This document shows positions 9,510 to 34,375 of a stretch of 64,000 nt of DNA, piece after piece. Each line of letters starts with the position of its first letter. The first letter of the stretch is position 1. The translations under genes were made by a program, and so were the position numbers. The notes beneath the pieces were generated by a model, which saw only the letters and a program-made list of their open reading frames with translations, did not search any database and was not told where the DNA came from. The DNA is from Achromobacter sp. AONIH1 (GTDB lineage Bacteria; Pseudomonadota; Gammaproteobacteria; Burkholderiales; Burkholderiaceae_B), in the NCBI RefSeq assembly GCF_002902905.1, contig NZ_CP026124.1:4774001-4838000 (forward strand), in the 5' to 3' direction.

Positions 9510-9593
9510 GCGGCGGCGGGCGGCGGCGCCTCTCGCCGCCGGCCGCGAACGGCGCTAAGCTGGCGGCCTGCCCTGCGCCAGGAACCTCCCTCC

Positions 9594-9947: not shown

Positions 9948-10023
9948 GTCGGCTTCGACCGCTCCATGAATGTCTCGCCAGCCTGCTCAGTAGCCGCGCC
10001 CCCGTCTTTCTCCTTTGGCAACC

Positions 10024-10950: not shown

Positions 10951-11038
10951 GAGAAAAATGCATCAATCGGGCAATTAATTTCATTTTACGTGCGCCGCGC
11001 GTCGCGTCCACAATGCCGGCACAGCCAGGGAGACCGAC

Positions 11039-12028
11039 ATGAACATCACCATCCTCGACGATTACTTCGACACGCTGCGGGGCCTGCCCTGTTTCCGCAA
11101 GCTGGACGGCCACGCGGTCACCGTGTGGAACGACCACCTGCAGGACACGGACGCGCTGGCCGAGCGGCTGCGCGACACCGACGCGCTGGTGCTGATCCGC
11201 GAGCGCACCCAGATCCTGGCGCCGCTGATCGCCCGGCTGCCGCGCCTGAAGCTGATCAGCCAGCGCAGCGTCTATCCGCATATCGACATCGCCGCCTGTA
11301 CCGCGCATGGCGTCATCGTGTCCTCGAACCAGCACGCCGGCACGCCGTCCTATGCCGCCGCCGAGCTGACCTGGGGGCTGGCGCTGGCCGCCATGCGCCA
11401 GATCCCGCAGCAGATGAAGGCGCTGCAGGCCGGCGACTGGCAGATCGGCGTGGGCCGCACGCTGCGCGGGCGCACCCTGGGCATCTACGGCTATGGCCGG
11501 ATCGGCGCGGAAGTGGCGCGCTACGGCGCGGCCTTCGGCATGAAGGTGCTGGTCTGGGCCCGCGAGGCCTCGCGCCAGCGCGCCCGCGACGAGGGCTGGG
11601 ACACGGCGCCGGACAAGGCCGCCTTCTTCGAGGCCTGCGACGTGCTGTCGCTGCACATGCGACTGGTGAAGGACACGCGCGGCATCGTCACGGCCGATGA
11701 CCTGGCGCGCATGAAGCCCGGCGCTCTGCTGGTCAACACCAGCCGCGCCGGCCTGATCGCGCCGGGCGCGCTGGAACAGGCGCTGCGCGCCGGCCGGCCC
11801 GGCATGGCGGCGGTGGACGTGTACGAGGAAGAGCCGCTGCGCGACACCCGGCATCCGCTCCTGAACCTGCCCAACGTGATCTGCACGCCGCACATTGGCT
11901 ATGTCACCGAGGACGAATACGAGACCCAGTTCTCCGACGTGTTCGACCAGATCGTGTCCTATGCCGCCGGCCAGCCGATCCATGTGGTCAATCCGGAAGT
12001 GCTGGCGACCAGGCCTGGCGGCGCCTAG
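11039..12028 (+). CDS. D-2-hydroxyacid dehydrogenase, NAD(P)-dependent
   Basis: Cytosolic oxidoreductase of 329 residues interconverting a 2-oxo acid and its D-2-hydroxy acid. The Rossmann dinucleotide motif GYGRIG is at 151-156. The catalytic triad of the family is intact: Arg236 (NTSRAGLI), Glu265 (VYEEEPL) and His285 (TPHIGY). The closest general relatives are phosphoglycerate or glyoxylate/hydroxypyruvate reductase-like enzymes; the substrate is not readable. GGGAGA 6 bp upstream supports the start. It is divergent from a LysR gene and ends before an intrinsic terminator at 12060. Confidence 0.93.
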
Positions 12029-12059
12029 CGCGCCGTTCTCCTGAACCCGTATCGCCCCG

Positions 12060-12088
12060 TCCCGCGACACCCGTCGCGGGATTTTTTT
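12060..12088 (+). terminator. Rho-independent terminator
   Basis: Stem TCCCGCGAC / GTCGCGGGA with a 4-base loop, followed by seven T. It lies 31 bp after the dehydrogenase stop. This is the clearest intrinsic terminator in the window. Confidence 0.92.
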
Positions 12089-12119
12089 CTAGGGGTTTAC
12101 CCCAGGAATACAAGCGGAC

Positions 12120-12146
12120 TGTCGATCTGCATCCTCTCCGTTCGTC
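12120..12146 (+). promoter_or_regulatory. Candidate ECF42 sigma promoter
   Basis: TGTCGA (12120-12125), a 17-base spacer, then CGTC (12143-12146), about 70 bp before the DGPF gene. From memory of the literature, ECF42 promoters carry TGTCGA at -35 and CGA/TC at -10, and the cognate sigma factor is encoded 1.1 kb downstream. The match is seen; the function is inferred. Confidence 0.6.
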
Positions 12147-12213
12147 GTGCCAGTACAAGCCCGGATCCAAGCCCGGATCCGGGCCTGGATCTTTCCCTCC
12201 CGGAGACTCAGAA

Positions 12214-12630
12214 ATGCGATTCATGATCATGGTCCGCGCCACCGCCGACAGCGAAGCCGGCCGCATGCCCGAAGAAAGCCTGCTTGCCGCGATGGTGAAT
12301 TACCACGAGGCCTTGTCCAAGGCCGGCGTGCTGCTGGACGCCAACGGCCTGCTGCCCTCGTCCAGGGGCTGGCGCGTCCAGTACGACGCCCAGGGCGAAC
12401 GCAAGGTGCTGGACGGCCCCTTCGCCGAAACCAAGGAGCTGATCGCCGGCTACACCATGATCCAGGCCCGCTCGCGCGAGGAAGCCATGCAATGGGCGCT
12501 ACGCTTTCCCTCACCCTTCCCCGGCCAGCCCTGCTCGGTCGAGGTGCGGCAGCTGTACGAGCTGGAGGATTTCGCGCCCAGCCCCGCCATCGAACGGTTC
12601 CGCGACATCCCGGGCAACGGACAACAATAG
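12214..12630 (+). CDS. YCII/DGPF domain protein of an ECF42 locus
   Basis: Cytosolic protein of 138 residues in the YCII fold with the DGPFAETKELIAGY motif at about 69-82. Starts MRFMIMVRAT after a GGAGA ribosome site. It is the first gene of a row DGPF - VOC - sigma factor, the standard neighbourhood of ECF42-type sigma factors. A TGTCGA-N17-CGTC promoter candidate lies upstream. An interspersed repeat (12649-12803) separates it from the VOC gene. The molecular role of DGPF proteins is not established. Confidence 0.9.
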   Translation: MRFMIMVRATADSEAGRMPEESLLAAMVNYHEALSKAGVLLDANGLLPSSRGWRVQYDAQGERKVLDGPFAETKELIAGYTMIQARSREEAMQWALRFPSPFPGQPCSVEVRQLYELEDFAPSPAIERFRDIPGNGQQ

Positions 12631-12648
12631 AAGTCCCCGAAGTAGAAG

Positions 12649-12803
12649 CCCCCCCCGAGCGCTGCGCGCTCCCCCCAGGGGGCGTCGCTACGGACCGGAG
12701 GGCGAAGCCCACCCGTGAAGCGCTAGGCGCTTCTGCCCTCAAGGGCGTCGCTGCGGACCGGCAAAGCCGGCTCCGCGCGACCTCGGTCCGGGGCGAGCCG
12801 GGC
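12649..12803. repeat. Interspersed intergenic repeat, two tandem units
   Basis: GC-rich repeat with GAGCGCTGCGCGCTC palindromes, CAGGGGGCGTCGCTACGGAC and CCGGCAAAGCCGG hairpins. It holds two related units (from about 12655 and 12717). A single related unit is at 50141-50220. The nested hairpins and intergenic position look like a REP/BIME-type family. Confidence 0.8.
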
Positions 12804-12848
12804 GTATGAATACCGTTTTTCTTTCGACATCAGACACCAGGAATTGCC

Positions 12849-13259
12849 ATGCACAAGCATATGTTCGTCAACCTGCCGATCCGCGACATGAAGAAATCGC
12901 AGGCCTTCTTCCGCAGCGTGGGCTATGAGTTCAATCCGCAGTTCACCAATGACCAGGGCGCCTGCCTGGTCGCGGGCGAGAATCTGTTCGTGATGCTGCT
13001 GGTCACGGACTTCTTCAAGACCTTCACCGGCAAGCCGGTGGCCGACGCCCATCAATCCACCGAGGTGCTGGTGGCGCTGTCCTGCGACAGCCGCGCCCAT
13101 GTCGACGAGCTGGTGGCCCGCGCGCGTGCCGCCGGCGGCGCGGTGCCGCGCAGCCCGCAGGATCTCGGCTTCATGTATTCGCACGGCTTCGAGGACCTGG
13201 ACGGCCATGTCTGGGAACTGGTGTACATGGAGCCGGGCGCGGTGCCGCCGCAGGCATGA
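12849..13259 (+). CDS. VOC superfamily (glyoxalase-like) protein
   Basis: Cytosolic protein of 136 residues with the paired beta-alpha-beta-beta-beta units of the vicinal oxygen chelate fold. It starts MHKHMFVNLPIRDMKKSQAF and ends with DLDGHVWELVYM. Candidate metal ligands are the early His/Asn region and the Glu in HVWELV. Proteins like this are often annotated lactoylglutathione lyase without proof. It shares four bases (ATGA) with the sigma factor gene, so it is translationally coupled to it. Confidence 0.88.
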   Translation: MHKHMFVNLPIRDMKKSQAFFRSVGYEFNPQFTNDQGACLVAGENLFVMLLVTDFFKTFTGKPVADAHQSTEVLVALSCDSRAHVDELVARARAAGGAVPRSPQDLGFMYSHGFEDLDGHVWELVYMEPGAVPPQA

Positions 13260-14584
13260 GGGGCAACAAGCCCTCGGCTGACGCCGGCGCGCCGGACAGT
13301 CCGGCCGCGCTGGCCACCCACCGCGCCATCGAGGCGGTCTGGCGGATCGAGGCCGCCAGCGTCATCGCCGGCGTGGCGCGGCTGGTGCGCGACGTCGGCC
13401 TGGCCGAGGAACTGGCCCAGGACGCGCTGGTCGCCGCGCTGGAACGCTGGCCCGCGTCCGGCGTGCCCGACAATCCCGGAGCCTGGCTCATGACCACCGC
13501 CAAGAACCGCGCCCGCGACCGCTTGCGGCTGGACGCGCTGCACAGCCGCAAGCACGAGCAGATCGGCCACGAGCTGCAGGCGCTGGAGGCCGACGTGGAA
13601 CCGGATTTCGTCGACGCGCTGGACGCCGCGCGCCAGGACGATATCGGCGACGATCTGCTGCGGCTGATCTTCACGGCCTGCCATCCGCTGCTGTCCACCG
13701 AGGCGCGCGTGGCGCTGACGCTGCGGCTGCTGGGCGGCCTGTCGACGACCGAGATCGCGCGCGCCTTCCTGGCCTCCGAGTCCACCATCGCGCAACGCAT
13801 CGTGCGCGCCAAGCGCAGCCTGTCCGCCGCGCGCGTGCCGTTCGAAGTGCCCGGCCCGGCCGAGCGCGCCGCGCGGCTGGCCTCGGTGCTGGAAGTTATC
13901 TACCTGATTTTCAACGAAGGCTATTCGGCCACATCGGGCGAGAATTGGACACGGCCCGCGCTATGCGACGAGGCGCTGCGCCTGGGCCGCATCCTGGCGC
14001 AATTGGCGCTCGGCGACAGCGAGGCGCACGGCCTGGTCGCGCTGATGGAGCTGCAGGCCTCGCGCCTGGCCGCCCGCGCCGACGGCCAGGGCCGGCCGGT
14101 ATTGTTGATGGACCAGGACCGCGGCCGCTGGGATCCGCTGCTGATCCGGCGCGGGCTGGCCGCGCTGGCGCGCGCCGAATCGCTGGGCGGCGCGCTCGGC
14201 CCTTACGCGCTACAAGCGGCGCTGGCGGCCTGCCACGCCCGCGCCCGTCGCGCCGAGGACACCGACTGGCCGCGCATCGTGGCGCTGTACGACGCGCTGG
14301 TCCAGGCCATGCCCTCGCCAGTGGCGGAGCTGAACCGGGCAGTGGCGGTCGGCATGGCCTTCGGCCCGCGGGCCGCGCTGGACCTGGTCGACGCGCTGGA
14401 GGCCGAGGGCGCGCTGGCCAATTACCACTGGCTGCCCAGCGTGCGCGGCGACCTCCTGGCCAAGCTGGGCCGGCATGCAGAGGCGCGCGAGGCCTTCGAA
14501 CGCGCCGCCGGCATGACCCGCAACGCCCGCGAACGCGAGCTGCTGCTGGCCCGCGCGGCGCAGATGCGGGACGGCCCGGCCTGA
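13256..14584 (+). CDS. ECF42-type RNA polymerase sigma factor
   Basis: Sigma-70 family factor of 442 residues, about twice the usual ECF length. Sigma region 2 (AEELAQDALVAALERW) and region 4 (LGGLSTTEIARAFLASESTI) occupy residues 20-195. The remainder is a helical TPR-like C-terminal extension (SPVAELNRAVAVGMAFGP, then YHWLPSVRGDLLAKLG) typical of ECF42. No anti-sigma factor gene is adjacent, as is normal for this group, where the C-terminal extension is thought to control activity. It is coupled by ATGA overlap to the VOC gene and shares a locus with a DGPF protein. The signal is unknown. Confidence 0.93.
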   Translation: MRGNKPSADAGAPDSPAALATHRAIEAVWRIEAASVIAGVARLVRDVGLAEELAQDALVAALERWPASGVPDNPGAWLMTTAKNRARDRLRLDALHSRKHEQIGHELQALEADVEPDFVDALDAARQDDIGDDLLRLIFTACHPLLSTEARVALTLRLLGGLSTTEIARAFLASESTIAQRIVRAKRSLSAARVPFEVPGPAERAARLASVLEVIYLIFNEGYSATSGENWTRPALCDEALRLGRILAQLALGDSEAHGLVALMELQASRLAARADGQGRPVLLMDQDRGRWDPLLIRRGLAALARAESLGGALGPYALQAALAACHARARRAEDTDWPRIVALYDALVQAMPSPVAELNRAVAVGMAFGPRAALDLVDALEAEGALANYHWLPSVRGDLLAKLGRHAEAREAFERAAGMTRNARERELLLARAAQMRDGPA

Positions 14585-14607
14585 CGCGCGCGTGCTTAAA
14601 TGCCGTC

Positions 14608-15474
14608 ATGCGCCCCGTTCCCGCTGCCCCCGACGAACCCGCGCCCGCCATGGAGGGCGTGCCGGACGCATTCGACCATCCGGACGACCGCGCCGAGTTC
14701 CGACGGCCCGGTCACCGGCCCGGCGTGGAGTTGTACCGCGCCCACATCATCCGCCACGCCTTCGAACCCCACACCCACGACGCCTTCGGGCTGGGCGCCA
14801 TCGAATCCGGCGTGGAGCGCTTCCGCTACCGTGGCGCCGATCACCTGGCGCCGTCCGGCTCGGTGGTGCTGATGAATCCCGATGAACTGCACACCGGCCG
14901 CGCCGAGACCGAGGGCGGCTGGCGCTACCGCATGGCGTACATCGACGCCGACGTGGTCGCGCGCGTGACGGGCGAGGACGGCTGGTGGTTCGACACTGCC
15001 GTGGGCCTGGACACGGCCAGCGCCACGCGCGTCACCGCCCTGCTCGACACCCTGTGGCGCGCGCGTGAGCCGCTGGCCTTCGACAGCGCCCTGCACGCGC
15101 TGCTGGCCGAGTTCCGCCGCCACGCCCGCGTGCCGCGCCCGGTCCGCGCCGAGGGCGCGCCGCGCTTCGCGCCCGTCATCGACTACATGCGCGCGCATCT
15201 GTCGCGCCGGCTGACGCTGGAAGAGCTGGCGCGCGAGGCCGGCCTGAGCCCCTTCCATTTCCTGCGCAGCTTCCAGGCGCATTGCCACGCCACGCCGCAG
15301 CAGATGCTGATGGCGCTGCGCCTGTTCGAGGCCAAGCGCCGCCTGGCCGCCGGCGAACCGCCCGCCCAGGTCGCGCTGGCGGCTGGCCTGACCGACCAGG
15401 CCCACCTGACGCGGGCCTTCGCCCGGCGCTACGGCGTCACGCCCGCGCGCTACCAGAAGCAGATGCGCGCCTGA
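14608..15474 (+). CDS. AraC family regulator
   Basis: Regulator of 288 residues. The N-terminal AraC_binding cupin (HAFEPHTHDAFGLGAIESGV, with HTHD as sensor-type His residues) is followed by a C-terminal double helix-turn-helix (LTLEELAREAGLSPFHFLRS, then GLTDQAHLTRAFARRYGV and TPARY). It lies 160 bp upstream of a DMT-family exporter on the same strand; such AraC/EamA pairs are common and suggest that it controls the exporter. The start is taken at 14608; a second in-frame Met (MEGVPDAF) is 15 codons on. Confidence 0.9.
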   Translation: MRPVPAAPDEPAPAMEGVPDAFDHPDDRAEFRRPGHRPGVELYRAHIIRHAFEPHTHDAFGLGAIESGVERFRYRGADHLAPSGSVVLMNPDELHTGRAETEGGWRYRMAYIDADVVARVTGEDGWWFDTAVGLDTASATRVTALLDTLWRAREPLAFDSALHALLAEFRRHARVPRPVRAEGAPRFAPVIDYMRAHLSRRLTLEELAREAGLSPFHFLRSFQAHCHATPQQMLMALRLFEAKRRLAAGEPPAQVALAAGLTDQAHLTRAFARRYGVTPARYQKQMRA

Positions 15475-15634
15475 GACCGCAGATCGCCGAACAGGCGCGG
15501 GTGCCGCGCCGGCGCTGCCGACGCGGTCGCGGGAATGCGCCGCCAACGCCCGCGCAGCAATCTGGTACAAGACCGCCCTCGCCTGCCGCCGATAGACTGG
15601 CCGCGTTTTCCTTGTCTGGAACCGGAGTGATTCT

Positions 15635-16594
15635 ATGTGGGCTGGAACCCTGTACGCCCTGGCCGCCGGCCTGATGTGGGGGCTGGTGTTCGTGGGCCCG
15701 CTGCTGCTGCCCGAGTATCCGGCGGCCTTGCAATCGGTGGCGCGCTACCTGGCCTTCGGCCTGATCGCCCTGCCGCTCGCCTGGCTGGACCGGCGCGCGC
15801 TGCGCCAGCTGGGCCGTGCCGATTGGATCGAGGCGCTGAAGCTGGCCGCCATCGGCAACCTGCTGTACTACCTGTGCCTGGCCAGCGCCATCCAGCGCGC
15901 CGGCGGGCCGGTGCCCACCATGATCATCGGCACGCTGCCGGTCGTGATCGCCGTCAGCGCCAACCTGCGCAACGCGCGCCGTGACGGGCGGCTGCCCTGG
16001 AAGCGGCTGGCGCCGTCGCTGGCGCTGATCGCGCTGGGCATCGCCTGCGTCAACCAGGTCGAGCTGCAGGCGCTGCGCCAGGATCCGGACGCCGACCTGG
16101 GCCGTTACGCGCTGGGCGCGCTGCTGGCGCTGGCCGCCGTGGCCTGCTGGACCTGGTATCCGCTGCGCAACGCCGACTGGCTGCGCGCCCATCCCGACCG
16201 CAGCCCGCGCACCTGGGCCACCGCCCAGGGCGTGGCCACGCTGCCGCTGGCCCTGGCCGGCTACGCGCTGCTGTGGACCGGCATGGCGGCGACCGGCGAC
16301 GCCTTTCCCATGCCGCTGGGTCCGCGCCCCGAAGTGTTCCTGGCGCTGATGGCCGCCATCGGCCTGTTCGCGTCGTGGCTGGGCACGCTGTGCTGGAACG
16401 AGGCCAGCCAGCGCCTGCCGACCGCGCTGGTCGGGCAGTTGATCGTGTTCGAGACGCTGGCGGCGCTGGCCTATGCCTACATGCTGCGCGGCCAGATGCC
16501 GCAGCCGCTGACCTTGATCGGCATCGGCTGCCTGATCGTGGGCGTGTTGCGCGCCGTGCGCGTCAAGCCCGAGCCGGTGGCGGCGCAGGCCTAG
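15635..16594 (+). CDS. DMT superfamily (EamA) transporter
   Basis: Integral inner-membrane protein of 319 residues with about ten hydrophobic helices in two EamA repeats. It begins MWAGTLYALAAGLMWGLVFV and ends LTLIGIGCLIVGVLRAV. Family members export amino acids, metabolites or drugs; the substrate is not visible. GGAG upstream of the ATG supports the start. The stop overlaps that of the convergent IclR gene (16591-16594), so no terminator separates them. Confidence 0.9.
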   Translation: MWAGTLYALAAGLMWGLVFVGPLLLPEYPAALQSVARYLAFGLIALPLAWLDRRALRQLGRADWIEALKLAAIGNLLYYLCLASAIQRAGGPVPTMIIGTLPVVIAVSANLRNARRDGRLPWKRLAPSLALIALGIACVNQVELQALRQDPDADLGRYALGALLALAAVACWTWYPLRNADWLRAHPDRSPRTWATAQGVATLPLALAGYALLWTGMAATGDAFPMPLGPRPEVFLALMAAIGLFASWLGTLCWNEASQRLPTALVGQLIVFETLAALAYAYMLRGQMPQPLTLIGIGCLIVGVLRAVRVKPEPVAAQA

Positions 16595-25508: not shown

Positions 25509-26729
25509 ATGGACGCGCCCCTGGCCGCCGCCGCCCGCGCGCTCGCCGCGGGCGATCCGCTGGACGCGCTGCACCATGTCGCGCTGCGCGGCGACCCGCC
25601 GGCGCTGGCGCTGCGTGGCATCGCCCTGGCCCAGCTGGGCGACCTGGAACGCGCCCGCGCCCTGCTGCGGCGCGCGGCCCGCGCGTTCCGCCCGGAGCAG
25701 GAGCTGGCGCGGGCGCGCTGCGAGCTGGCCGAAGCCGACGTGGCGCTGGCGATGCGCGACCTGGACTGGCCCGACGAAACGCTGGAATCCACCCGCCAGG
25801 CCCTGCTGCGGCACGGCGACCTCGCCAACGCCGCGCATGCCCGGCTGCTGCATGCGCGGCGCCTGCTGCTGCTGGGCCGTGCCGACGACGCCGCCGTCGC
25901 CATCGCGGGCTGGGATCAGGCGCCGCTGCCCGCCGCCGCGCGGGCGGTGCATGCCTTGGCCGCCGCCGGCATCGCGCTGCGCCGCCTGCAGGCAGAACCC
26001 GCCCGGCTGGCGCTGGCCCAGGCCCGGGCCGCCGCGCGCGAATCCGGTATCGGCGCGCTGCAAGCCGAGGCCGATGCGCTGTCGCGCCTGCTGGAGGCCC
26101 CGGCGGCCAGGCTGACCCACCACGGCGCGCAGCGCCTGCTGCGCCTGGACGAAGTCGAGGCGCTGATGGCCTCGGACGCGCTGGTGGCGGACACCGCCCG
26201 CCAGGCGCTGCGCAGTCCCATGGCCACGGTGGACCTGTCGCGGCGGCCGGTGCTGTTCGCGCTGGCGCGCCAGCTGGCCGAGGCCTGGCCCGGCGACGCG
26301 CCGCGCGAGGCGCTGATCGCCGCCGTCTTCCGCCTGCGGCGGCCCGACGAGACCCATCGCGCCCGGCTGCGGGTGGAGGCCGGCCGGCTGCGCGTCGCGC
26401 TCAAGGGCCTGGCCGAGGTCCGGGCCAGCCGCCGGGGCTATGCGCTGGCCCTGCCACCCGGCTGCGAAGCCGTGACGCTGGCCCCGCCCGACGAAAGCGC
26501 CCACCCGGAACTGCAAGCCCTGCTGGCGGACGGCCAGCCCTGGTCCAGCGCCGCGCTGGCCCTGGCGCTGGGCGCCAGCCAACGTTCGGTGCAGCGTGCC
26601 CTGGAAACCCTGGCCGCCGCCGGCCAGGCCCAGCCGCTGGGACAGGGGCGCGCGCGCCGCTGGGCCGCGCCGCCGCCGCCCGGATGCGCGACGGTTTTGT
26701 TACTCCCGCCGCTGCCGCCGGCGGACTAG
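25509..26729 (+). CDS. TPR-like and winged-helix domain protein
   Basis: Cytosolic Ala/Leu/Arg-rich protein of 406 residues. Residues 1-200 are TPR-like helix pairs (ALRGIALAQLGDLERARALL). Residues 235-315 hold a segment around RKPVLF-like DLSRRPVLFALARQLAEAWP and TRHRARLRVEAGRLR resembling OmpR-type winged-helix DNA-binding domains of transcriptional activators. The C-terminus has a second helix-turn-helix (SSAALALALGASQRSVQRAL). It is probably a regulator. The beta-propeller gene 33 bp downstream is the likely partner. Confidence 0.65.
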   Translation: MDAPLAAAARALAAGDPLDALHHVALRGDPPALALRGIALAQLGDLERARALLRRAARAFRPEQELARARCELAEADVALAMRDLDWPDETLESTRQALLRHGDLANAAHARLLHARRLLLLGRADDAAVAIAGWDQAPLPAAARAVHALAAAGIALRRLQAEPARLALAQARAAARESGIGALQAEADALSRLLEAPAARLTHHGAQRLLRLDEVEALMASDALVADTARQALRSPMATVDLSRRPVLFALARQLAEAWPGDAPREALIAAVFRLRRPDETHRARLRVEAGRLRVALKGLAEVRASRRGYALALPPGCEAVTLAPPDESAHPELQALLADGQPWSSAALALALGASQRSVQRALETLAAAGQAQPLGQGRARRWAAPPPPGCATVLLLPPLPPAD

Positions 26730-26762
26730 CATGGCTCCATTCCCATCCGGAGACTCCCCGCC

Positions 26763-27407
26763 ATGAAATCCGCTCCCGCCCAGATCGTCCGTGAATACGG
26801 CCCCTTCCCCGGCGTCACCGATGTCCACGGCGTCAGCCACGACGGCCGCCGGGTCTGGTTCGCCACCGGCGATTCGCTGCAATCGATGGATCCGGCCAGC
26901 GGCAAGATCGTCAGCATCATCAAGATGACGGCGCGCGCCGGCACCGCCTATGACGGCCGGCACCTGTACCAGCTCGCCGGTCCGAGCATCCAGAAGGTCG
27001 ACCCGCGCAGCGGCGAGATCCTGGCCACGCTGCCAGCGCCCGCCGAGGGCTGCTCGGGCATGGCCTGGGCCGAGGGCGCGCTGTGGGTGGCGCATTACCG
27101 CGAGCGCAAGATCCACAAGATCGACCCGGCCACGGGCAAGATCCTGCGCACCATCGCCTCGGACCGCTACGTGACCGGCGTCACGTGGACCAACGGCGGC
27201 CTGTGGCACGGCACCTGGGAAAACGACGAAAGCGAACTGCGCCGCGTCTCGCCCGAGACCGGAGAAGTGCAGGAGAGCCTGCTCATGCCGCCGGGCGTCT
27301 ACGTCTCCGGGCTGGAAGCGGGCGACGGCGTGTTCTATTGCGGCGGCAGCACCAGCGGCAGGATCCGCGCCGTGCGCCAGCCCGAGCCCGCGTCCGAAAG
27401 CCGCTGA
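26763..27407 (+). CDS. Beta-propeller (Vgb/glutamine-cyclotransferase-like) protein
   Basis: Cytosolic protein of 214 residues built of about five four-stranded blade repeats: SMDPASGKIV, KVDPRSGEILATL, KIDPATGKILRTIA and VSPETGEVQESL recur every 40 or so residues. This pattern is seen in NHL, virginiamycin-lyase and glutaminyl-cyclotransferase-type propellers. No signal peptide is present. Catalytic residues of the latter enzymes cannot be assigned, so it may be a binding protein. GGAGA upstream of the ATG supports the start; it follows the TPR-HTH gene by 33 bp. Confidence 0.72.
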   Translation: MKSAPAQIVREYGPFPGVTDVHGVSHDGRRVWFATGDSLQSMDPASGKIVSIIKMTARAGTAYDGRHLYQLAGPSIQKVDPRSGEILATLPAPAEGCSGMAWAEGALWVAHYRERKIHKIDPATGKILRTIASDRYVTGVTWTNGGLWHGTWENDESELRRVSPETGEVQESLLMPPGVYVSGLEAGDGVFYCGGSTSGRIRAVRQPEPASESR

Positions 27408-27607
27408 ACGGACGCCGCCGCCCGAATCCGGCGGCGGCGCTTCCCGGTTGGCGCCACGGCCGTCCGCCTCGTGGAGCCGGCCCCGGCCGGCGCTCCGTCC
27501 CCCAGGGGAATCCAAGCGTCTTCCCCGCTCCATCCGCCCGCCGCCGCCCTGGGGTCCGCTTTCCGCCGCGCCAGCGTGTAAACTCCCCCCTTTTTGGCTC
27601 TGGTGGT

Positions 27608-28357
27608 ATGGTGCAAGCCCCTCGGCGCACAGGTTTCAGCGGCCCGACGCTCGTTCGCTTGCTTGCTCGCCTGACGGACGTCGACGTTCCCGAATCCGGA
27701 CAATCCCTTTCCGACCGGCTCAGCCTCTGGCTGGGCTGGACGGACGCCATCGCGCTCGCCGCCGTGCTGGATGGCAAGCCACCGGCCATGGCGCCGGGCG
27801 GCCCGACGTTCGACAGCGAGCAGGACCGGGAAAGCCTGAAGCTGCGGACCACGCTGGCCGATGCCATCGCCAGCGACACCGAGTTCACCGCCGCCCGGCC
27901 CCGCGGCCGGCAGCCGCCCTCGCGGACGCAGGCCGTGCCCAAGGCGCCGACCGACGCCGACTACTCCAGCTTCCGCCAGCGCTACCTGTCGCTGCAGCAC
28001 ACGATGGAGAACGGCATCGGCGGCCTGCGCAGCCGCCTGCGCGGCATGCTGGCCGGACGCAATCCGGAAATGACCCGGCTGGCGATGGTGGACGCCATCA
28101 TGGAAAGATCGCTCAGCGTGCGCGAACGCGCCCTCATGACGACTATTCCGACGCTGCTCGGCGCGCATTTCGAGCGGCTGCGCAAGGCCGAGCAATCGGC
28201 GCAGGAAGAAGCCGAGGCGGCGGAAATGCCGCCGCCGGCCAAGCCCGGCGCCTGGCTGGACACGTTTCGCAAGGACATGCGCAGCGTGTTGCTGGCCGAA
28301 CTGGATATTCGTTTTCAACCGGTGGAAGGGCTGCTCGCGGCGCTTCGCACCCGCTAA
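27608..28357 (+). CDS. DUF3348 family protein
   Basis: Cytosolic protein of 249 residues, the first gene of the DUF3348-DUF802-OmpA-DUF2894 set. It starts MVQAPRRTGFSGPTLVRLLA, then SLSDRLSLWLGWTDAIAL. A disordered Pro/Arg stretch (about 95-120) leads to a helical C-terminal half (FRQRYLSLQHTMENGIGGLR, and RALMTTIPTLLGAHFERLR). No enzyme motif or membrane helix is seen. It lies 10 bp before the large channel protein gene and is surely co-transcribed with it. It may be a cytosolic partner of the channel tail; the function is unknown. Confidence 0.85.
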   Translation: MVQAPRRTGFSGPTLVRLLARLTDVDVPESGQSLSDRLSLWLGWTDAIALAAVLDGKPPAMAPGGPTFDSEQDRESLKLRTTLADAIASDTEFTAARPRGRQPPSRTQAVPKAPTDADYSSFRQRYLSLQHTMENGIGGLRSRLRGMLAGRNPEMTRLAMVDAIMERSLSVRERALMTTIPTLLGAHFERLRKAEQSAQEEAEAAEMPPPAKPGAWLDTFRKDMRSVLLAELDIRFQPVEGLLAALRTR

Positions 28358-28367
28358 TTAGGACACT

Positions 28368-31300
28368 ATGTCCCGATACCTCATCAATCTGGTCGTTTTT
28401 CTTGTGGGCCTGGCCGCGGCAGGCTGGATCGGCGCGGGCTATGTCGGCTCGAACCCATTGGCGCTCGGCGTCACGCTGCTGATCGCCCTGTTCTACATGG
28501 CGGGCGCCTTCGAGCTGTACCGCTACGGCCGCGCCACCAGCGGGCTGCGCCAGGCGGTGGCCGGGCTGGAGGCCCCGCCCGCCTCGCTGGCCGGCTGGCT
28601 CGACTCCCTGCCGCCCAGCCTGCGCCACGCCGCCCGGCTGCGCATCGAAGGCGAGCGCGCCGCCCTGCCCGGCCCCTCGCTCACGCCCTACCTGGTCGGC
28701 CTGCTGGTCTTGCTGGGCATGCTCGGCACCTTCCTGGGCATGGTGGTCACGCTGCGGGGCACCGGCCTGGCGCTGGAAAGCGCCACCGACCTGCACGCCA
28801 TCCGCGCCTCGCTGGCCGCGCCGGTCAAGGGCCTGGGCTTCGCCTTCGGCACCTCGATCGCCGGCGTCGCCACCTCGGCCATGCTGGGCCTGCTGTCCGC
28901 GCTCTGCCGGCGCGACCGCATCCTGGCCTCGCAGCAGTTCGACGCCCGCGTCGCCACCACGCTGCGCCCCTATTCGCAAAGCTACCAGCGCGAGGAAACG
29001 CTCAAGCTGCTGCAGCGCCAGGCCGACGCCATGCCGGCCCTGGCCGAACGCCTGCAGGCCATGATCGACGCCGTCGAGCGCCAGGGCCAGGCCATGAATG
29101 ACCGCCAGCTCGCCAGCCAGGACGCCTTCCAGGGCAAGGCCGAGGCCGCCTACAGCCGCCTGGCCGCCTCGGTCGAACAGACGCTCAAGGCCAGCGTGGC
29201 CGACAGCGCCCGCGCCGCCGGCGCGGCGTTGCAGCCTGTCGTGGAAGCCACCATGACCGGCCTGGCGCGCGAGACCGCCGCGCTGCGCGACACCGTGTCC
29301 GACGCAGTGCAGCGCCAGCTCGACGGCCTGTCCGCCGGATTCCGCGAATCCACCGCCGACGTGGCCGGCATCTGGGCGCGCGCGCTGGACGGCCAGCAGC
29401 GCGCCAACGAAACGCTGGCGAACGACCTGCGCGTCTCGCTGGATCAGTTCGCCGCCACCTTCGAGCAGCGTTCCGCCGCGCTGATGGATGGCATGTCCAC
29501 GCGCATGGAGGCCTCGGCCGGCAAGCTGTCCGACGTCTGGGACGGCGCGCTGTCGCGCCAGGAACGCGCCGGCGAAAAGCTGGCTGGCGACAACCAACAG
29601 GCCCTGGCCGCCGCCGCCGCCGCGCTGGAACGCCAATCGGCCGCGCTGGTGCAGGCCGTGAGCCAGTCCCACGCCGACCTGCAAGCCGCGCTGATGGCGC
29701 GCGACGAGCAGCGCCTGGCCGCCTGGAACGCATCGCTGGGTTCGGTCTCGGCCTCGCTGCGCCAGGAATGGGAACAGGCGGCGGCGCAGACCGCCGGCCG
29801 CCAGCAGGAGATCTGCGACGCGCTGGCGCTGACCGCCCAGCGCATCTCCGACCACACCCAGCTGCAGGCCGGCGAGACCATCGCCGAGATCAGCCGACTG
29901 GTGCAGGCCGCGGCCGACGCGCCCAAGGCCGCCGCCGCGCTGCAGGCCGAGCTGGCCGCGCGCGACCAGGATCGCCTGCAGGCCTGGACGGCCTCGCTGG
30001 AGAACATGACCGCCGCGCTGCGCCAGGAATGGCAGCAGGCTGGCGCCGAGGCGGCCAGCCGCCAGCGCGAAATCTGCGACGCGCTGTCGCTCGCCGCGCA
30101 GAACATCTGCGAGCAGGCGCGCACCCAGGCCAGCGGCACGCTGGCCGAGATCAACCGGCTGGTCGACGCCGCCGCCGACGCGCCCAAGGCCGCCCTCGCG
30201 TTGCAGGACGAACTGGCCGCGCGCGACCGCGAGCGCCTGGACGCCTGGAGCGGCTCGCTGGCCGAGATGACCGCCGCGCTGCGCCAGGAATGGCAGCAGG
30301 CTGGCGCCGACGCCGCCAGCCGCCAGCGCGAAATCTGTGACGCGCTGGCCCTGGCCGCGCAGCGCATCTCCGAACAGACGCAGGCCCAGGCCAGCGGCAC
30401 GCTGGCGGAAATCAACCGACTGGTCGACGCCGCCGCCGACGCGCCCAAGGCCGCCCTCGCCCTGCAGGGCGAGCTGGCCGCGCGCGACCGCGAGCGCCTG
30501 GACGCCTGGAGCGGCTCGCTGGCCGAGATGGCCGCCGCGCTGCGCCAGGAATGGCAGCAGGCCGGCGCCGACGCCGCCAGCCGCCAGCGCGAAATCTGCG
30601 ATGCCCTGCTGCTGGCCGCGCAGGACATCTCCGAGCAAGGCCGCGCCCAGGCCAGCGGCACGCTGGCGGAAATCAACCGCCTGGTCGATGCCGCCGCCGA
30701 GGCGCCCAAGGCCGCCGTCGCCCTGCAGGCCGAGCTGGTGGCCCGCGACCAGGCCCGCCTGGACGCGTGGACCGGCACGCTGGCCGAGATGGCCGCCACG
30801 CTGCGCCAGGAATGGCAGCAGGCCGGCGCCGATGCCGCCAGCCGCCAGCAGCAGATCTGCGAGGCGCTGGCCGACACCGCCCGCCAGATCTCGGATCAAT
30901 CGCGCGCCCACGCCAGCGACACGCTGGCCGAGATCAACCGCCTGGTCGATGCCGCCGCCGAGGCGCCCAAGGCCGCCGTCGCCCTGCAAAGCGACCTGGT
31001 GGCCCGCGACGAGGCCCGCCTGGACGCCTGGACCGGATCGCTGGCCGGCATGGCCGCCGCGCTGCGCGAGGAATGGCAGCAGACCGGCGCCGCCACCGCC
31101 AGCCGCCAGCAGGAAATCTGCGACGCGCTGGCCCAGGCCGCGCGCGACATCTCCGAGCACACCCACACCCACGCCAGCGCCACCATCGCCGAGATCGAGC
31201 GCCTGGCGCAGGCCGCGTCCGAGGCGCCGCGCGCCGCCGCCGAGGTCATCGGCGAACTGCGTCAGAAGCTGTCCGACAGCCTGGCCCACGACAACGCCAT

Positions 31301-31769
31301 GCTGGAAGAGCGCGGCCGCCTGCTCGACACGCTCGCGACCCTGCTGGACGCCGTCAACCTCGCCTCCACCGAGCAACGCGCCGCCGTGGACGCGCTGGTC
31401 GGCACCACCTCGGAGCTGATGGACCGGGTGGGCGCGCAGTTCTCGGAACGCGTCGAATCCGAAACCGGCAAGCTGGCCGAGATCTCGGCCCAGGTCACCG
31501 GCAGCGCCGTCGAAGTGGCCAGCCTGGGCGAGGCCTTCGGCGCCGCGGTGCAGCTGTTCAGCGCGTCCAACGACAAGCTGGCCACGCAGCTCGAACGCAT
31601 CGAGGCGGCGCTGGACAAGTCCATCGCCCGTGGCGACGAACAGCTCTCCTACTACGTGTCGCAGGCGCGTGAAGTGGTGGACCTGAGCCTGATGTCGCAG
31701 AAGCAGATCATTGAAGACCTGCAGCACCTGGCCAGCCAGCGCGCCGACGCGGGAACCGAGGCCGCATGA
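28368..31769 (+). CDS. DUF802 MotA/ZorA-like channel protein with giant coiled tail
   Basis: Inner-membrane protein of 1133 residues. Four membrane helices lie at about 5-23, 31-51, 108-128 and 158-179. TM3 (YLVGLLVLLGMLGTFLGMVV) and TM4 (FGTSIAGVATSAMLGLLSAL) match the MotA/TolQ/ExbB channel fold. Some 950 residues of helical, coiled-coil-like tail follow in the cytoplasm. Residues 464-985 of the tail are six tandem 87-residue repeats with a core such as SRQREICDALALAAQ. Architecture and partner resemble ZorA of the Zorya anti-phage system, but the C-terminal part is annotated DUF802 by family and no ZorC/D/E gene is here. It overlaps the OmpA-protein gene by four bases. Confidence 0.87.
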   Translation: MSRYLINLVVFLVGLAAAGWIGAGYVGSNPLALGVTLLIALFYMAGAFELYRYGRATSGLRQAVAGLEAPPASLAGWLDSLPPSLRHAARLRIEGERAALPGPSLTPYLVGLLVLLGMLGTFLGMVVTLRGTGLALESATDLHAIRASLAAPVKGLGFAFGTSIAGVATSAMLGLLSALCRRDRILASQQFDARVATTLRPYSQSYQREETLKLLQRQADAMPALAERLQAMIDAVERQGQAMNDRQLASQDAFQGKAEAAYSRLAASVEQTLKASVADSARAAGAALQPVVEATMTGLARETAALRDTVSDAVQRQLDGLSAGFRESTADVAGIWARALDGQQRANETLANDLRVSLDQFAATFEQRSAALMDGMSTRMEASAGKLSDVWDGALSRQERAGEKLAGDNQQALAAAAAALERQSAALVQAVSQSHADLQAALMARDEQRLAAWNASLGSVSASLRQEWEQAAAQTAGRQQEICDALALTAQRISDHTQLQAGETIAEISRLVQAAADAPKAAAALQAELAARDQDRLQAWTASLENMTAALRQEWQQAGAEAASRQREICDALSLAAQNICEQARTQASGTLAEINRLVDAAADAPKAALALQDELAARDRERLDAWSGSLAEMTAALRQEWQQAGADAASRQREICDALALAAQRISEQTQAQASGTLAEINRLVDAAADAPKAALALQGELAARDRERLDAWSGSLAEMAAALRQEWQQAGADAASRQREICDALLLAAQDISEQGRAQASGTLAEINRLVDAAAEAPKAAVALQAELVARDQARLDAWTGTLAEMAATLRQEWQQAGADAASRQQQICEALADTARQISDQSRAHASDTLAEINRLVDAAAEAPKAAVALQSDLVARDEARLDAWTGSLAGMAAALREEWQQTGAATASRQQEICDALAQAARDISEHTHTHASATIAEIERLAQAASEAPRAAAEVIGELRQKLSDSLAHDNAMLEERGRLLDTLATLLDAVNLASTEQRAAVDALVGTTSELMDRVGAQFSERVESETGKLAEISAQVTGSAVEVASLGEAFGAAVQLFSASNDKLATQLERIEAALDKSIARGDEQLSYYVSQAREVVDLSLMSQKQIIEDLQHLASQRADAGTEAA
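29757..31322 (+). repeat. Six tandem 261-bp coding repeats
   Basis: Units start at 29757, 30018, 30279, 30540, 30801 and 31062, each exactly 261 bp (87 codons) and beginning CTGCGCCAGGAATGG or a close variant. Units 2-5 are nearly identical at DNA level, unit 1 and unit 6 more divergent. They lie in frame inside the DUF802 protein gene. Confidence 0.95.
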
Positions 31770-32416
31770 GCGAGGACTTCGACGCCGGCGTGGACAGCAC
31801 CGCGCCCACCTGGGCGGTCTTCGGCGACCTGATGTCGGTGCTGCTGGGTTCGTTCGTGCTGATCCTGGTCAGCGTGATCGGCATGCAGCTCGAACTGTCG
31901 ACCCAGCTGGAAGACGAGGTCAAGCAGCGCCAGGAGGAAACCCATCGCCGCGAAAGCCTGGAACAGGTGCTGGCCGGCCCGCTGGCCGCCGGCCGCGTCA
32001 CGCTGGTCAACGGCCGCATCGGCATCAGCGGCAGCGTGCTGTTCGCGCTGAACTCCGACCAGCTCCAGCCCGAGGGCCGCGAGCTGCTCAGGAGCCTGGC
32101 CGAACCGCTCACCGCCTACCTGGGCACGCGCCAGGAAATCCTGATGGTCAGCGGCTTCACCGACGACCAGCAGGTGCGCGAGGGCAACCGCCGCTTCGCG
32201 GACAACTGGGATCTCTCGGCCCAGCGCGCGCTGACCGTCACCCGCACCCTGATCGACACCGGCGTGCCGTCCTCGTCCCTGTTCGCCGCGGCCTTCGGCT
32301 CGGAGCAGCCGGTGGCCTCGAACGCCGACGCCGAGGGCCAGGCCAAGAACCGCCGCGTGGAAATCGCGCCGGTGCCGCGCCTGGCCGGCGACCCGGCCAA
32401 GAAACCGAATGAGTGA
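31766..32416 (+). CDS. OmpA family MotB/ZorB-like protein
   Basis: Partner of the DUF802 channel protein, 216 residues. One membrane helix (about 17-40, WAVFGDLMSVLLGSFVLILV) carries Asp21, placed like the ion-binding Asp of MotB and ZorB. A short charged helix (EDEVKQRQEETHRRESLE) leads to a compact OmpA-like domain (about 85-205) with VSGFTDDQQV and AKNRRVEIAP peptidoglycan-type motifs. With the upstream protein it should form a wall-anchored ion-driven unit. It overlaps its neighbours by four and eight bases. Confidence 0.9.
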   Translation: MSEDFDAGVDSTAPTWAVFGDLMSVLLGSFVLILVSVIGMQLELSTQLEDEVKQRQEETHRRESLEQVLAGPLAAGRVTLVNGRIGISGSVLFALNSDQLQPEGRELLRSLAEPLTAYLGTRQEILMVSGFTDDQQVREGNRRFADNWDLSAQRALTVTRTLIDTGVPSSSLFAAAFGSEQPVASNADAEGQAKNRRVEIAPVPRLAGDPAKKPNE

Positions 32417-33260
32417 CCACACGCAGGCCGACGCCGGGCGCGAACGGGATCCGATCCCGACCGCCCGGGAAAGCGATCAGGACCGCCAGGCCTTGAGCGC
32501 CCCCGTGGACGAGTCCGCCAGCGCCCACGCGGACGCGCCCACCGGCGCCCCCGCCCTGCCCCGCAGCGCCGCCGGCCTGCGCCTGGACGCCTGGCGCGAG
32601 CGCGGCGCCGACCGCATGGATCCCGTGCGCTTCCGCTTCATGGAAGCGCTGGAGCGACGCGCCGCCCCGCATGCCGGCGCCGCCCGCGCGCTGCTGGACC
32701 AGCGCCTGGCCGCCCTGCTCGACGCCTACGCGGCGGACCTGGAGCGGGACGAGGCCGCGCCCGGCGGCCCCGCGCCCGAGCCGTCGCAAGCGCCTGGCCG
32801 CGAGGCGCGGGATTGCGCCGCCGCCGATACGCCCATCGACGCGCCCCTGCCCGCCGACACCCTGGCCAGCCTGGCCCGCGCGCTCGACACCGGCCACGCG
32901 GTGCCCTGGCGCGGCGCCTACCCGGAGCTGCCGCTCCTGGACGTGTACCGCGATATCTGGGCCAAGGTCAGCGCCAACCGCCAGCTGCGCCAATCGGAAC
33001 AGCAGGTGCCCGACAATGCCGGCCCGCTCAATTCCAACAACCTGGTCCACCGCTCGCTGGCGCTGATGCGCCAGCTCTCGCCCGGCTATCTGCACCAGTT
33101 CCTGTCCTACCTGGACGCGCTGGCCTGGATGGAGCAGTTCGATGGCGCGGTGGCCGCTGCCAAGGAAGCCGCGCGCGGTTCGGCCAAGGCTGGCGCCAAG
33201 GGTGCGGGCAAGGCGGCTAAGCCCGCCGCCGCCAAGCGCAGCCGGGCCAAGACGGCCTGA
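32409..33260 (+). CDS. DUF2894 family protein with basic C-terminal tail
   Basis: Cytosolic protein of 283 residues, the last gene of the channel operon. It has a disordered N-terminus, a helical segment (PVRFRFMEALERRAAPHAGA) and a conserved C-terminal block (NSNNLVHRSLALMRQLSPGY, then LHQFLSYLDALAWMEQFDGA) that marks DUF2894. It ends in a Lys/Ala-rich histone-H1-like tail (KAAKPAAAKRSRAKTA), which could bind nucleic acid or another acidic partner. No catalytic motif is seen. Eight-base overlap with the OmpA gene indicates translational coupling. Confidence 0.85.
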   Translation: MSDHTQADAGRERDPIPTARESDQDRQALSAPVDESASAHADAPTGAPALPRSAAGLRLDAWRERGADRMDPVRFRFMEALERRAAPHAGAARALLDQRLAALLDAYAADLERDEAAPGGPAPEPSQAPGREARDCAAADTPIDAPLPADTLASLARALDTGHAVPWRGAYPELPLLDVYRDIWAKVSANRQLRQSEQQVPDNAGPLNSNNLVHRSLALMRQLSPGYLHQFLSYLDALAWMEQFDGAVAAAKEAARGSAKAGAKGAGKAAKPAAAKRSRAKTA

Positions 33261-33305
33261 CGCCCCGTCCGATTTGCGCCGGGCCCGGTGCCCGCAGTAA
33301 GATAC

Positions 33306-33332
33306 GATCCATATACAAACCATATACGGATC
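33306..33332. promoter_or_regulatory. Candidate operator/promoter of the parD-like/map operon
   Basis: GATCC and GGATC arms (33306-33310, 33328-33332) enclose two direct copies of CCATATAC (33309-33316 and 33320-33327) spaced one helical turn apart, ending 6 bp before the ATG. It is AT-rich and sharply different from its surroundings. Tandem half-sites like this suit a ribbon-helix-helix autorepressor. Confidence 0.55.
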
Positions 33333-33338
33333 ACTTAC

Positions 33339-33584
33339 ATGGGCATCGTCAAGATCTCCGAGCAGATGCATGAGAACCTGCGCGTGGCCAGCGCCGCGCT
33401 CAGCCGCTCCATCAATTCCCAGGCCGAGCACTGGATGCGCATCGGCATGCTGTCCGAGCTGTATCCCCAGCTGCGCCACGCGGACATCTGCCAGCTGCTG
33501 ATCCGCATCGAGCAGGCCGAGGGCTTCTCCATCGCCGCCCTGTCCCAGGGCCAGCCGCAAGACGCCCATCGGGAGGCCGCGTGA
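33339..33584 (+). CDS. ParD-like family protein
   Basis: Small protein of 81 residues. Its start, MGIVKISEQMHENLRVASAA, is the ribbon-helix-helix region of the ParD-like family (known as putative type II antitoxin). No RelE/ParE toxin follows; instead a methionine aminopeptidase gene begins one base into its stop codon. An operator-like double half-site lies directly upstream, consistent with autoregulation. The start at 33339 is the Met that begins the conserved domain. Whether it has any antitoxin role is unknown. Confidence 0.82.
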   Translation: MGIVKISEQMHENLRVASAALSRSINSQAEHWMRIGMLSELYPQLRHADICQLLIRIEQAEGFSIAALSQGQPQDAHREAA

Positions 33585-34375
33585 TGGCCAGGAAGGTCTC
33601 GATCAAATCCGCCGCCGACATCGAAATGGCCCGCAAGGCCGGCGCGCTGGCGGCCGAAGTGCTGCAGGTGGTGGCCGAGCACGTGCGGCCCGGCGTCACC
33701 ACCGACGAGCTGGACCGCATCTGCCACGACCACATCGTCAAGGTGCAGCAGGCCATCCCCGCCAACATCGGCTACCACGGCTTTCCCAAGACCATCTGCG
33801 CCTCGCCCAACCACGTCATCTGCCACGGCATCCCGTCGTCCAAGGTGCTCAAGAACGGCGACATCCTGAACATCGACGTGGCCGTCATCAAGGACGGCTG
33901 GTACGGCGACACCAGCCGCATGTACTACGTCGGCGAGCCCAGCCCGCTGGCCCGCAGGCTGGTCCGCACCACCTACGAAGCCATGCGCGCCGGCATCATG
34001 GCCGTCAAGCCAGGCGCCACGCTGGGCGATATCGGTCACGCCATCCAGACGGTGGCGCACCGCGAGCACTTCAGCATCGTGCGCGAGTACTGCGGCCACG
34101 GCATCGGCCAGATCTATCACGACGAGCCGCAGGTGCTGCACTACGGCCGTCCCGGCGAGGGCCTGGTGCTGCAACCCGGCATGATGTTCACCATCGAGCC
34201 CATGATCAACGCCGGCAAGCCGGCCACGCGCCAGATGCCCGACGGCTGGACCGTAGTCACCAAGGACCGCTCGCTGTCCGCGCAGTGGGAGCACATGGTG
34301 GTGGTGACCGACACCGGCTATGAAGTGCTGACGCCCTGGCCCGACGGCTTCGGCGACTATCCGCCCATCCCCTGA
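33584..34375 (+). CDS. map: Methionine aminopeptidase, type I
   Basis: Cytosolic metalloprotease removing N-terminal Met from nascent proteins, 263 residues. The five metal ligands of the family are visible: two Asp in NIDVAVIKDGWYGDTSRMY, His in GHGIGQIYHDEP, Glu in MMFTIEPMIN and Glu in QWEHMVVV. Its ATG overlaps the stop of the ParD-like gene (TGATG), so translation is coupled; a GTG at 33581 is a weaker alternative. The genome very probably has a housekeeping map elsewhere, near rpsB, so this would be a second copy with its own regulator. Confidence 0.94.
   Translation: MARKVSIKSAADIEMARKAGALAAEVLQVVAEHVRPGVTTDELDRICHDHIVKVQQAIPANIGYHGFPKTICASPNHVICHGIPSSKVLKNGDILNIDVAVIKDGWYGDTSRMYYVGEPSPLARRLVRTTYEAMRAGIMAVKPGATLGDIGHAIQTVAHREHFSIVREYCGHGIGQIYHDEPQVLHYGRPGEGLVLQPGMMFTIEPMINAGKPATRQMPDGWTVVTKDRSLSAQWEHMVVVTDTGYEVLTPWPDGFGDYPPIP

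Follow-up and report, generated by a model that had tools for sequence, protein, structure and literature searches.

What kind of machine is encoded by the four tightly packed plus-strand genes at positions 27608 to 33260 of the Achromobacter sp. AONIH1 DNA analysed here, and is it kept for defence? The stretch (the window, 64,000 nucleotides, G000:C1:4774001-4838000) lies in a single-contig genome of 6.65 Mb, and an earlier reading of its letters, the original prediction, had proposed an uncharacterised, fifth kind of ion-driven motor with the architecture of the Zorya proteins ZorA and ZorB. We conclude that the operon is a Zorya type III anti-phage system, in the order DUF3348, zorA, zorB, DUF2894, with an ion-driven motor (probability about 0.8). 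The first gene (27608 to 28357, with its ATG at 27608) encodes a 249-residue DUF3348 protein, predicted to be a helical bundle; the second (28368 to 31769) encodes the 1133-residue ZorA3, a MotA/ExbB-like channel subunit with a long cytoplasmic tail; the third (31766 to 32416) the 216-residue, MotB-like ZorB3, with one membrane helix and an OmpA peptidoglycan-binding domain; and the fourth (32409 to 33260) a 283-residue DUF2894 protein. The tight packing described in the prediction was thus borne out, and the overlaps of 4 bases between zorA and zorB and of 8 bases between zorB and the DUF2894 gene suggest that the four genes form one operon. A search of positions 27300 to 33700 for sigma-70-like promoter and terminator patterns found none, a result that says little at such a GC content.

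As judged from family models, the operon almost certainly is Zorya type III. When scored against the PADLOC library, all four genes had a type III model as their best match: ZorA3 (PDLC00650) at 1759.5 bits, ZorB3 at 382.9, the DUF3348 model at 373.5 and the DUF2894 model at 313.8; the type I and II models were far weaker, reaching at most 27.5 bits for ZorA and 64.0 bits for ZorB. A Pfam scan placed DUF3348 (PF11828, 320 bits), DUF802 (100 bits in two stretches), OmpA (68 bits) and DUF2894 (PF11445, 191.7 bits) in the four proteins. The locus therefore combines a ZorA that matches the type III model, a ZorB with a membrane aspartate and an OmpA domain, and a zorAB pair flanked by DUF3348 and DUF2894. 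The four genes also recurred together, as all four were matched in 50 of 51 and in 76 of 80 DUF3348 loci, and the remaining five loci end with their contig. The names of the two flanking proteins are reversed between sources: papers call DUF3348 ZorF and DUF2894 ZorG, whereas in PADLOC-DB (PDLC00652-PDLC00658) DUF3348 is ZorG (ZorG3 for the match above) and DUF2894 is ZorF (ZorF3).

Zorya type III was named in 2021 (Payne and others, PMC8565338). The parts of that paper cited here count 6,401 zor gene pairs (printed zorBC) with DUF3348 and DUF2894 on their flanks, and report that a relative of the present operon, the type III operon of Stenotrophomonas nitritireducens, protected Escherichia coli BL21-AI by reducing plaquing of at least one phage. 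The window has the same four families around zorAB, and nothing tested sets it apart from type III. The system was thus already in print, and the finding as first given is not new; because a published function for the gene set was what the prediction itself had named as its undoing, the notion of an uncharacterised fifth motor falls. The gene order, which differs from that of types I and II, and the failure of Pfam to assign any known function did speak for a fifth, unrelated class, but with each of the four genes covered by a type III model (314 to 1759 bits) and the set published as Zorya type III, we give that class hardly any credence. What stands is the likeness to ZorAB, as all four proteins fit the type III models and the ZorA head and ZorB match the solved type I complex, 8VVN.

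Other systems with the same two-protein core were compared with the window. Zorya type I (8VVN; ZorABCD) resembles it in its MotA-like pore with a long tail, its wall-binding ZorB and its conserved aspartate, with significant profile matches; it differs in that its genes occurred in only 2 of 43 Achromobacter genomes (one model for each gene), near other defence genes. No match to the ZorC and ZorD models of the PADLOC library was found in the 10 neighbouring proteins, and the whole genome gave only three weak matches, of at most 28 bits, to one ZorD1 model. Zorya type II (8VVI; ZorABE) shares the ZorAB core, as seen in PADLOC cross-matches. Among the same 10 proteins there was neither an HNH family in Pfam nor a ZorE match in PADLOC, a library that we take to contain a ZorE model. 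The tail of type II, at residues 100 to 378, is shorter than that of the window ZorA, and the enzymes of the two systems have been described as a helicase-like ZorD in type I and a nickase, ZorE, in type II (PMC11890865, in the parts drawn on here); ZorE has also been called a probable HNH endonuclease. Unlike types I and II, with ZorD and ZorE, type III comes without any recognised enzyme. Flagellar stators (MotAB and PomAB) share the two-protein ion-driven design, and the ZorB OmpA domain aligned with MotB and PomB; the stators differ in that the pore of the window ZorA is followed by a cytoplasmic part of about 950 residues, and the MotB, MotD and MotS models scored 46 to 86 bits on ZorB against cut-offs of 250 to 301 (among the 25 of 43 families listed). 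TolR and ExbD, partners of TolQ and ExbB, are short subunits not known to carry an OmpA domain, and the window ZorB has one.

To follow the motor head through the family, residue invariance was counted on 126 sequences from about 109 different genomes, with ZorA starts picked by rule. The third membrane helix of ZorA (residues 106 to 131, at 28683 to 28760) holds T121, which was identical in 126 of 126 sequences; the fourth (residues 155 to 180, at 28830 to 28907) holds T162 and S163, both identical in all 125 that could be read. The one unreadable sequence, L049, has its start called too far upstream, so its ZorA length of 1164 is too high. With helix ends set by eye, about 950 residues lie beyond the last membrane helix, in agreement with the pore and cytoplasmic tail proposed originally. 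In ZorB, Asp21, the predicted ion-binding aspartate (codon at 31826 to 31828), was identical in all 126 type III sequences and aligned with the aspartate of two type I ZorB proteins from Achromobacter; the OmpA-like peptidoglycan-binding domain (PF00691) occupies residues 92 to 196, at 32039 to 32353. Both features had been predicted, and absence of the aspartate from homologues had been set beforehand as a point that would count against the motor; it was present throughout.

Comparison with solved structures led to the same family. The ZorA head profile (residues 109 to 180) matched a solved ZorA, 8vvn_C, with an expectation value (E) of 1.5e-5, and comparison with the two Achromobacter type I ZorA proteins gave a probability of 59.6 over the pore. 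The best matches of the ZorB profile were the OmpA parts of MotB-like proteins (E 3.5e-18); among the best 60 of 82 matches, only 8vvn_B (E 4.3e-9) and 8qyd_F (E 3.5e-7), the latter from what we take to be a type I Zorya structure, included the membrane helix and spanned nearly the whole ZorB profile. The type I ZorAB solved in 8VVN comes from Shewanella sp. ANA-3. The excerpts of its paper that we use (PMC11890865) describe a 5:2 complex in which a ring of ZorA serines and threonines surrounds the ZorB aspartate, and they name binding to peptidoglycan, the tail and the flow of ions as important in both type I and type II. By their positions in the helices, compared without superposing structures, T121, T162 and S163 appear to fit that ring.

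Beyond the head, ZorA is built unevenly. Its shaft begins with two DUF802 repeats (29328 to 29651; PF05650 at G000:C1:4803328-4803483 and 4803496-4803651) and continues, for its main part, as a 261-bp tandem repeat encoding 87 residues, found by Tandem Repeats Finder in 5.9 copies at 29678 to 31228 (ZorA residues 437 to 953). This repeat makes up much of the tail and went unmentioned in the original prediction. The last 165 residues, at 31272 to 31766, form a conserved, acidic distal tip with a median net charge of -12. In 24 sequences chosen to be diverse, the median pairwise identity was 0.70 over the first 205 residues, 0.46 over the shaft and 0.63 over the tip, and the shaft ranged from 305 to 830 residues. 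For conservation, alignments of 16 to 20 sequences chosen from about 51 were used, and the invariance and repeat-period counts were made on all sequences; in the 16 aligned for the tip, R1088, D1090, E1091, Q1092, L1093, Y1095, Y1096, V1097, Q1099, A1100, R1101 and E1102 were invariant. Over the 126 sequences ZorA ranged from 643 to 1229 residues, which departs from the well-conserved component size that PMC11890865, in the passages cited here, states for each Zorya family. None of the four type III ZorA models (692, 698, 780 and 1063 positions) is as long as the window protein, with its 1133 residues. Type III ZorA proteins are, in effect, natural length variants of one shaft, and could be used to ask whether reach or rigidity matters.

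The lengths of the repeats point to how the shaft may change. In 36 of 37 other Achromobacter genomes the repeat period was 131 residues, and in the window itself it was 87. Among 71 ZorA sequences from outside Achromobacter, 21 had a period of 87, 43 were without a strong repeat, and seven had periods of 29, 33, 69, 80, 94, 102 or 149. At 3.636 residues per turn, a value picked after the tails had been inspected, 87 residues make 23.9 turns and 131 make 36.0; the periods of 29, 33, 69, 80, 102 and 149 also fell within 0.1 of whole turns, and only 94 (25.85 turns) was off. The hydrophobic period of the window protein was 3.626 residues in the repeat; the DUF802 part gave 3.676 and the tip 3.57. 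The repeats, it would seem, are mostly duplicated without loss of helical register, which is what long helices packed in a bundle would need. A strict, universal ladder of 87-residue steps was considered but not borne out: 45 of the 71 lengths lay within 2 of 697 + 87n, but the rows are related, and when each of the 33 distinct lengths was counted once, the concentration at 87 fell to 0.278, a value reached by 8.6% of random draws and below their 95% level of 0.305, with 43 of the 71 tails lacking a strong repeat. Two other shafts are worth recording. In L090 (genome G310), a relative at the level of the order, ZorA has a bare 11-residue pattern (autocorrelation peaks at 11, 22, 33 and on, of 0.20 to 0.25). 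In L057 (genome G020) the ZorA frame, at 1039 residues, is shorter than those of its relatives and stops about 1 kb before zorB, reflecting either a broken shaft or an assembly fault.

The proteins that flank ZorAB offered a possible partner for the tip. The C-terminal tail of the DUF2894 protein (its last 35 residues, at 33153 to 33257) is basic, with a net charge of +9 in the window and a median of +4; the charge was +4 or more in 88 of 122 sequences, and the lowest value was -1. Together with the acidic ZorA tip, this suggests a docking of the two, as read from their charges. The basic tail that had been predicted is thus real, but a nucleic acid partner need not be invoked, since an acidic one is available within the operon. 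An AlphaFold2 model of the DUF3348 protein, based on 61 sequences, had a mean predicted local distance difference test score (pLDDT) of 77.3 and a confident C-terminal helical bundle, with blocks of residues 121 to 249 at 86 to 96. The model of the DUF2894 protein, based on 73 sequences, contained a confident helical stretch at about residues 54 to 116 and a less certain C-terminal helical part.

From what was observed directly, namely family membership, conserved ion-path residues, and a conserved head and tip joined by a repeat shaft that keeps register, we propose the following, tentatively and at somewhat less than even odds. Five ZorA and two ZorB subunits most likely would assemble into an inner-membrane motor driven by ions, and the OmpA domain of ZorB would anchor this motor to the cell wall. 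Rotation of the ZorA pentamer would be powered by ions moving past ZorB Asp21 and the threonine/serine ring of ZorA, and the pentamer would drive a shaft of about 900 helical residues; a continuous helix over residues 205 to 1110 would span some 136 nm, at 0.15 nm per residue. Both the DUF2894 protein, attached through its basic tail, and the DUF3348 protein would ride on the conserved acidic tip, and the two would act once infection disturbs the envelope.

Another arrangement would have the DUF3348 and DUF2894 proteins hold ZorAB shut until infection frees them, whereupon the membrane would depolarise and the cell would stop, with neither a rotating shaft nor a step on nucleic acid. Family and fold searches found no nuclease or helicase in either protein, unlike ZorD of type I and ZorE of type II, and the authors who described type III proposed that both proteins regulate ZorAB (PMC8565338, in the part cited above). 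Such a gated leak leaves unexplained, however, why the far tip should be conserved on a shaft that changes by in-register modules, and the tail is stated to matter in types I and II (PMC11890865, as excerpted here); we think it unlikely.

Several observations weigh against reading the operon as a type III anti-phage system driven by such a motor. The NCBIfam ZorA models were far below their cut-offs on the window ZorA (15.2 against 500 bits and 9.6 against 190 bits), and among the families listed (25 of 43) the window ZorB passed only a model named 'hypothetical protein'. The Pfam MotA_ExbB model scored 12.0 bits on ZorA, below its cut-off of 22.9, and the channel assignment therefore rests on the PADLOC models and on the match to the solved ZorA. 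Each 87-residue repeat contains one proline, which makes kinks in the shaft possible. The model of the DUF2894 protein was weak (pLDDT 67.7, predicted template modelling score 0.37), and neither it nor the DUF3348 protein matched any solved fold at E of 0.001 or less, which weakens the proposed effector step. Finally, the operon is near-universal, and at one chromosomal place, in Achromobacter, which is unusual for a defence system.

The last of these points raises the question of a role other than defence: the operon could be a core motor serving mainly the envelope, cell division or the chromosome in Achromobacter and Burkholderiaceae, with the plasmid-borne phage protection seen in E. coli a side effect or a second use. 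Taking genomes of at least 90% completeness and at most 5% contamination as near-complete, DUF3348 was found in 41 of 43 Achromobacter genomes (40/40 near-complete) and in 109 of 117 Paraburkholderia genomes (103/110), the genus of genome G295, and both counts favour such a role. Presence was patchier at higher ranks: 207 of 299 genomes (205/292 near-complete) in the family of G295, 86 of 250 (83/211) in the family of the window itself, and 18 of 300 (18/270) in a sample of the order, two of these last being weak matches without zorAB. These two PF11828 matches, in G183 and G051, had no zorA or zorB in 20 kb around them and probably are not systems. The operon was thus missing from 128 of 211 near-complete genomes of its own family, and the patchiness there and in the order argues against any general essential role. 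Also in favour of a core motor, carriage on plasmids and phages was scarce: 27 of 72,556 plasmid records, each of at least 366 kb, contained DUF3348, and ZorB occurred in exactly those 27; a scan of 50,697 phage records found DUF3348 in none. Two peptide patterns did meet 32 stretches of viral contigs, but none of these encodes a ZorB relative, and carriage by phages or viruses was set aside. High conservation of type III within one species is already in print, as PMC13064858 reports it, in the excerpt cited, in at least 90% of Ralstonia solanacearum genomes. Our literature search, whose scope left the main Nature paper on Zorya outside, turned up nothing published on how long the type III shaft is or on a core place in Achromobacter; for tail length, the 15 of 44 papers listed were all unrelated phage notes.

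The chromosomal place was followed in 38 loci from the 40 Achromobacter genomes, besides that of the window, that had a match; G006 and G011 were left out as their matches lie near a contig end. At least one flanking gene was shared with the window in 37 of the 38; in the 38th, the contig ends on the right and the 8-kb left flank gave no match. The right neighbours of the window, the methionine aminopeptidase gene (map) or a major facilitator superfamily (MFS) gene, were downstream in the same orientation at 30 loci, and homologues of its left neighbours (25509 to 27407) were found at 32, often inverted. The left neighbours are a 406-residue protein without a Pfam match (25509 to 26729) and a protein at 26763 to 27407 with weak propeller-type Pfam matches; one or both also accompany the operon in one relative from another genus of the family (L082). 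ZorB and DUF3348 distances correlated with neighbour distances (Spearman 0.53 to 0.73, permutation p 0.001, 20 to 32 loci) as well as those of map and MFS did with each other (0.54). The GC content of the type III locus, 71 to 74%, was like that of the adjoining stretches. All this would suit a housekeeping motor, as would the lack of any defence gene among the 10 neighbours scanned (apart from one weak CARF match, to a MarR protein), on which the idea of a defence island at the window locus was dropped. Among 47 loci of Burkholderia, Paraburkholderia, Caballeronia and Trinickia, by contrast, no flanking family occurred in more than 20 (by heuristic gene calls), and the place of the operon is therefore fixed in Achromobacter and not in general. 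The survey of neighbourhoods called for by the original prediction thus found a fixed site in one genus, but neither a defence island around the operon nor a fixed site in Burkholderia in the wide sense.

Type I Zorya served as a control in the same 43 Achromobacter genomes. A ZorD1 match above 1400 bits together with a ZorA1 match above 80 bits occurred only in G013 and G023, where ZorA1, ZorB1 and ZorD1 lie together, in 20-kb stretches of 55.9% and 61% GC, near a ShosT or a type I restriction gene. The search used one model per type, so that other variants may be missed, and the ZorA1 and ZorA2 models also re-find the type III locus; away from it, weak ZorA-like matches of at most about 24 bits were seen in G006, G008, G011, G019, G024, G034 and G042. 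Of the two type I loci, L186 holds ZorABCD at 7944 to 16186, and in L187 (6944 to 15246) no full-length ZorC frame was called. G006 also carries, at L188 7880 to 18410, genes for a MotA-like protein of 445 residues (41 bits to ZorA1), a 511-residue protein and a 163-residue protein with a ZorB-like membrane stretch, followed by proteins of 446, 1243 and 710 residues, the last with a mad3-like part; this is possibly an unlisted Zorya-like operon.

Descent and selection were read from a tree and from substitution rates. The tree, from which L057 (short ZorA frame), L061 (no zorB) and duplicate genomes were left out, placed the window in a clade of 37 with support 0.91 together with Achromobacter rows (of the 14 names listed, all but the window were Achromobacter). 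The closest single tip was Cupriavidus basilensis, at a distance of 0.386 against 0.463 for the nearest Achromobacter. A recent swap of the operon from Cupriavidus, suggested by that tip and by the repeat of 87 rather than 131 residues, was rejected on the clade, although not beyond doubt. The operon has been inherited vertically within Achromobacter. For pairs of Achromobacter sequences chosen by a synonymous distance (dS) of 0.05 to 0.7 in ZorB, the median ratio of nonsynonymous to synonymous substitution (dN/dS) was 0.11 for ZorB, 0.20 for DUF3348, 0.24 for ZorA and 0.38 for DUF2894; among the neighbours it was 0.06 for map, 0.09 for DUF445, 0.20 for MFS and 0.30 for the 406-residue protein (639 pairs for ZorB, DUF3348 and DUF2894, 603 for ZorA, 390 for map, 444 for the 406-residue protein and fewer for DUF445 and MFS). 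All four operon genes are kept by selection. DUF2894 changes fastest of the four, in part through its poorly alignable ends.

Within Achromobacter, then, the type III operon is part of the core chromosome instead of a mobile island, and repeated modules make its drive shaft longer or shorter. With type I rare and island-like in these same genomes, a type III system that belongs to the core and keeps one place throughout a genus is a good starting point for asking whether its work goes beyond defence; the core status may reflect core immunity or another job. A motor whose main work is housekeeping we nevertheless consider rather improbable: one type III operon protected E. coli BL21-AI (PMC8565338, as quoted above), the patchy presence and the shifting place in Burkholderia stand against it, and the rapid change of DUF2894 is what an arms race would also give. 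We prefer the reading as an anti-phage system. A conjecture that we hold to be doubtful would join the two, in that type III, in Achromobacter and Burkholderiaceae, may be a domesticated core Zorya, inherited vertically, that has a standing cellular job or takes part in core innate immunity. The shaft of this motor would then be a modular length element between a fixed head and a fixed acidic tip, its length shifting mainly by whole-turn repeats (87 residues as 24 turns, 131 as 36) while selection tunes the reach of the tip.

The right flank of the window operon (33288 to 34375, plus strand) lies outside the system. It begins with a ParD-like gene (PF11903, 33288 to 33584) that directly precedes and overlaps the methionine aminopeptidase-like gene (PF00557, 33581 to 34375), an odd partner for a member of a toxin-antitoxin family.

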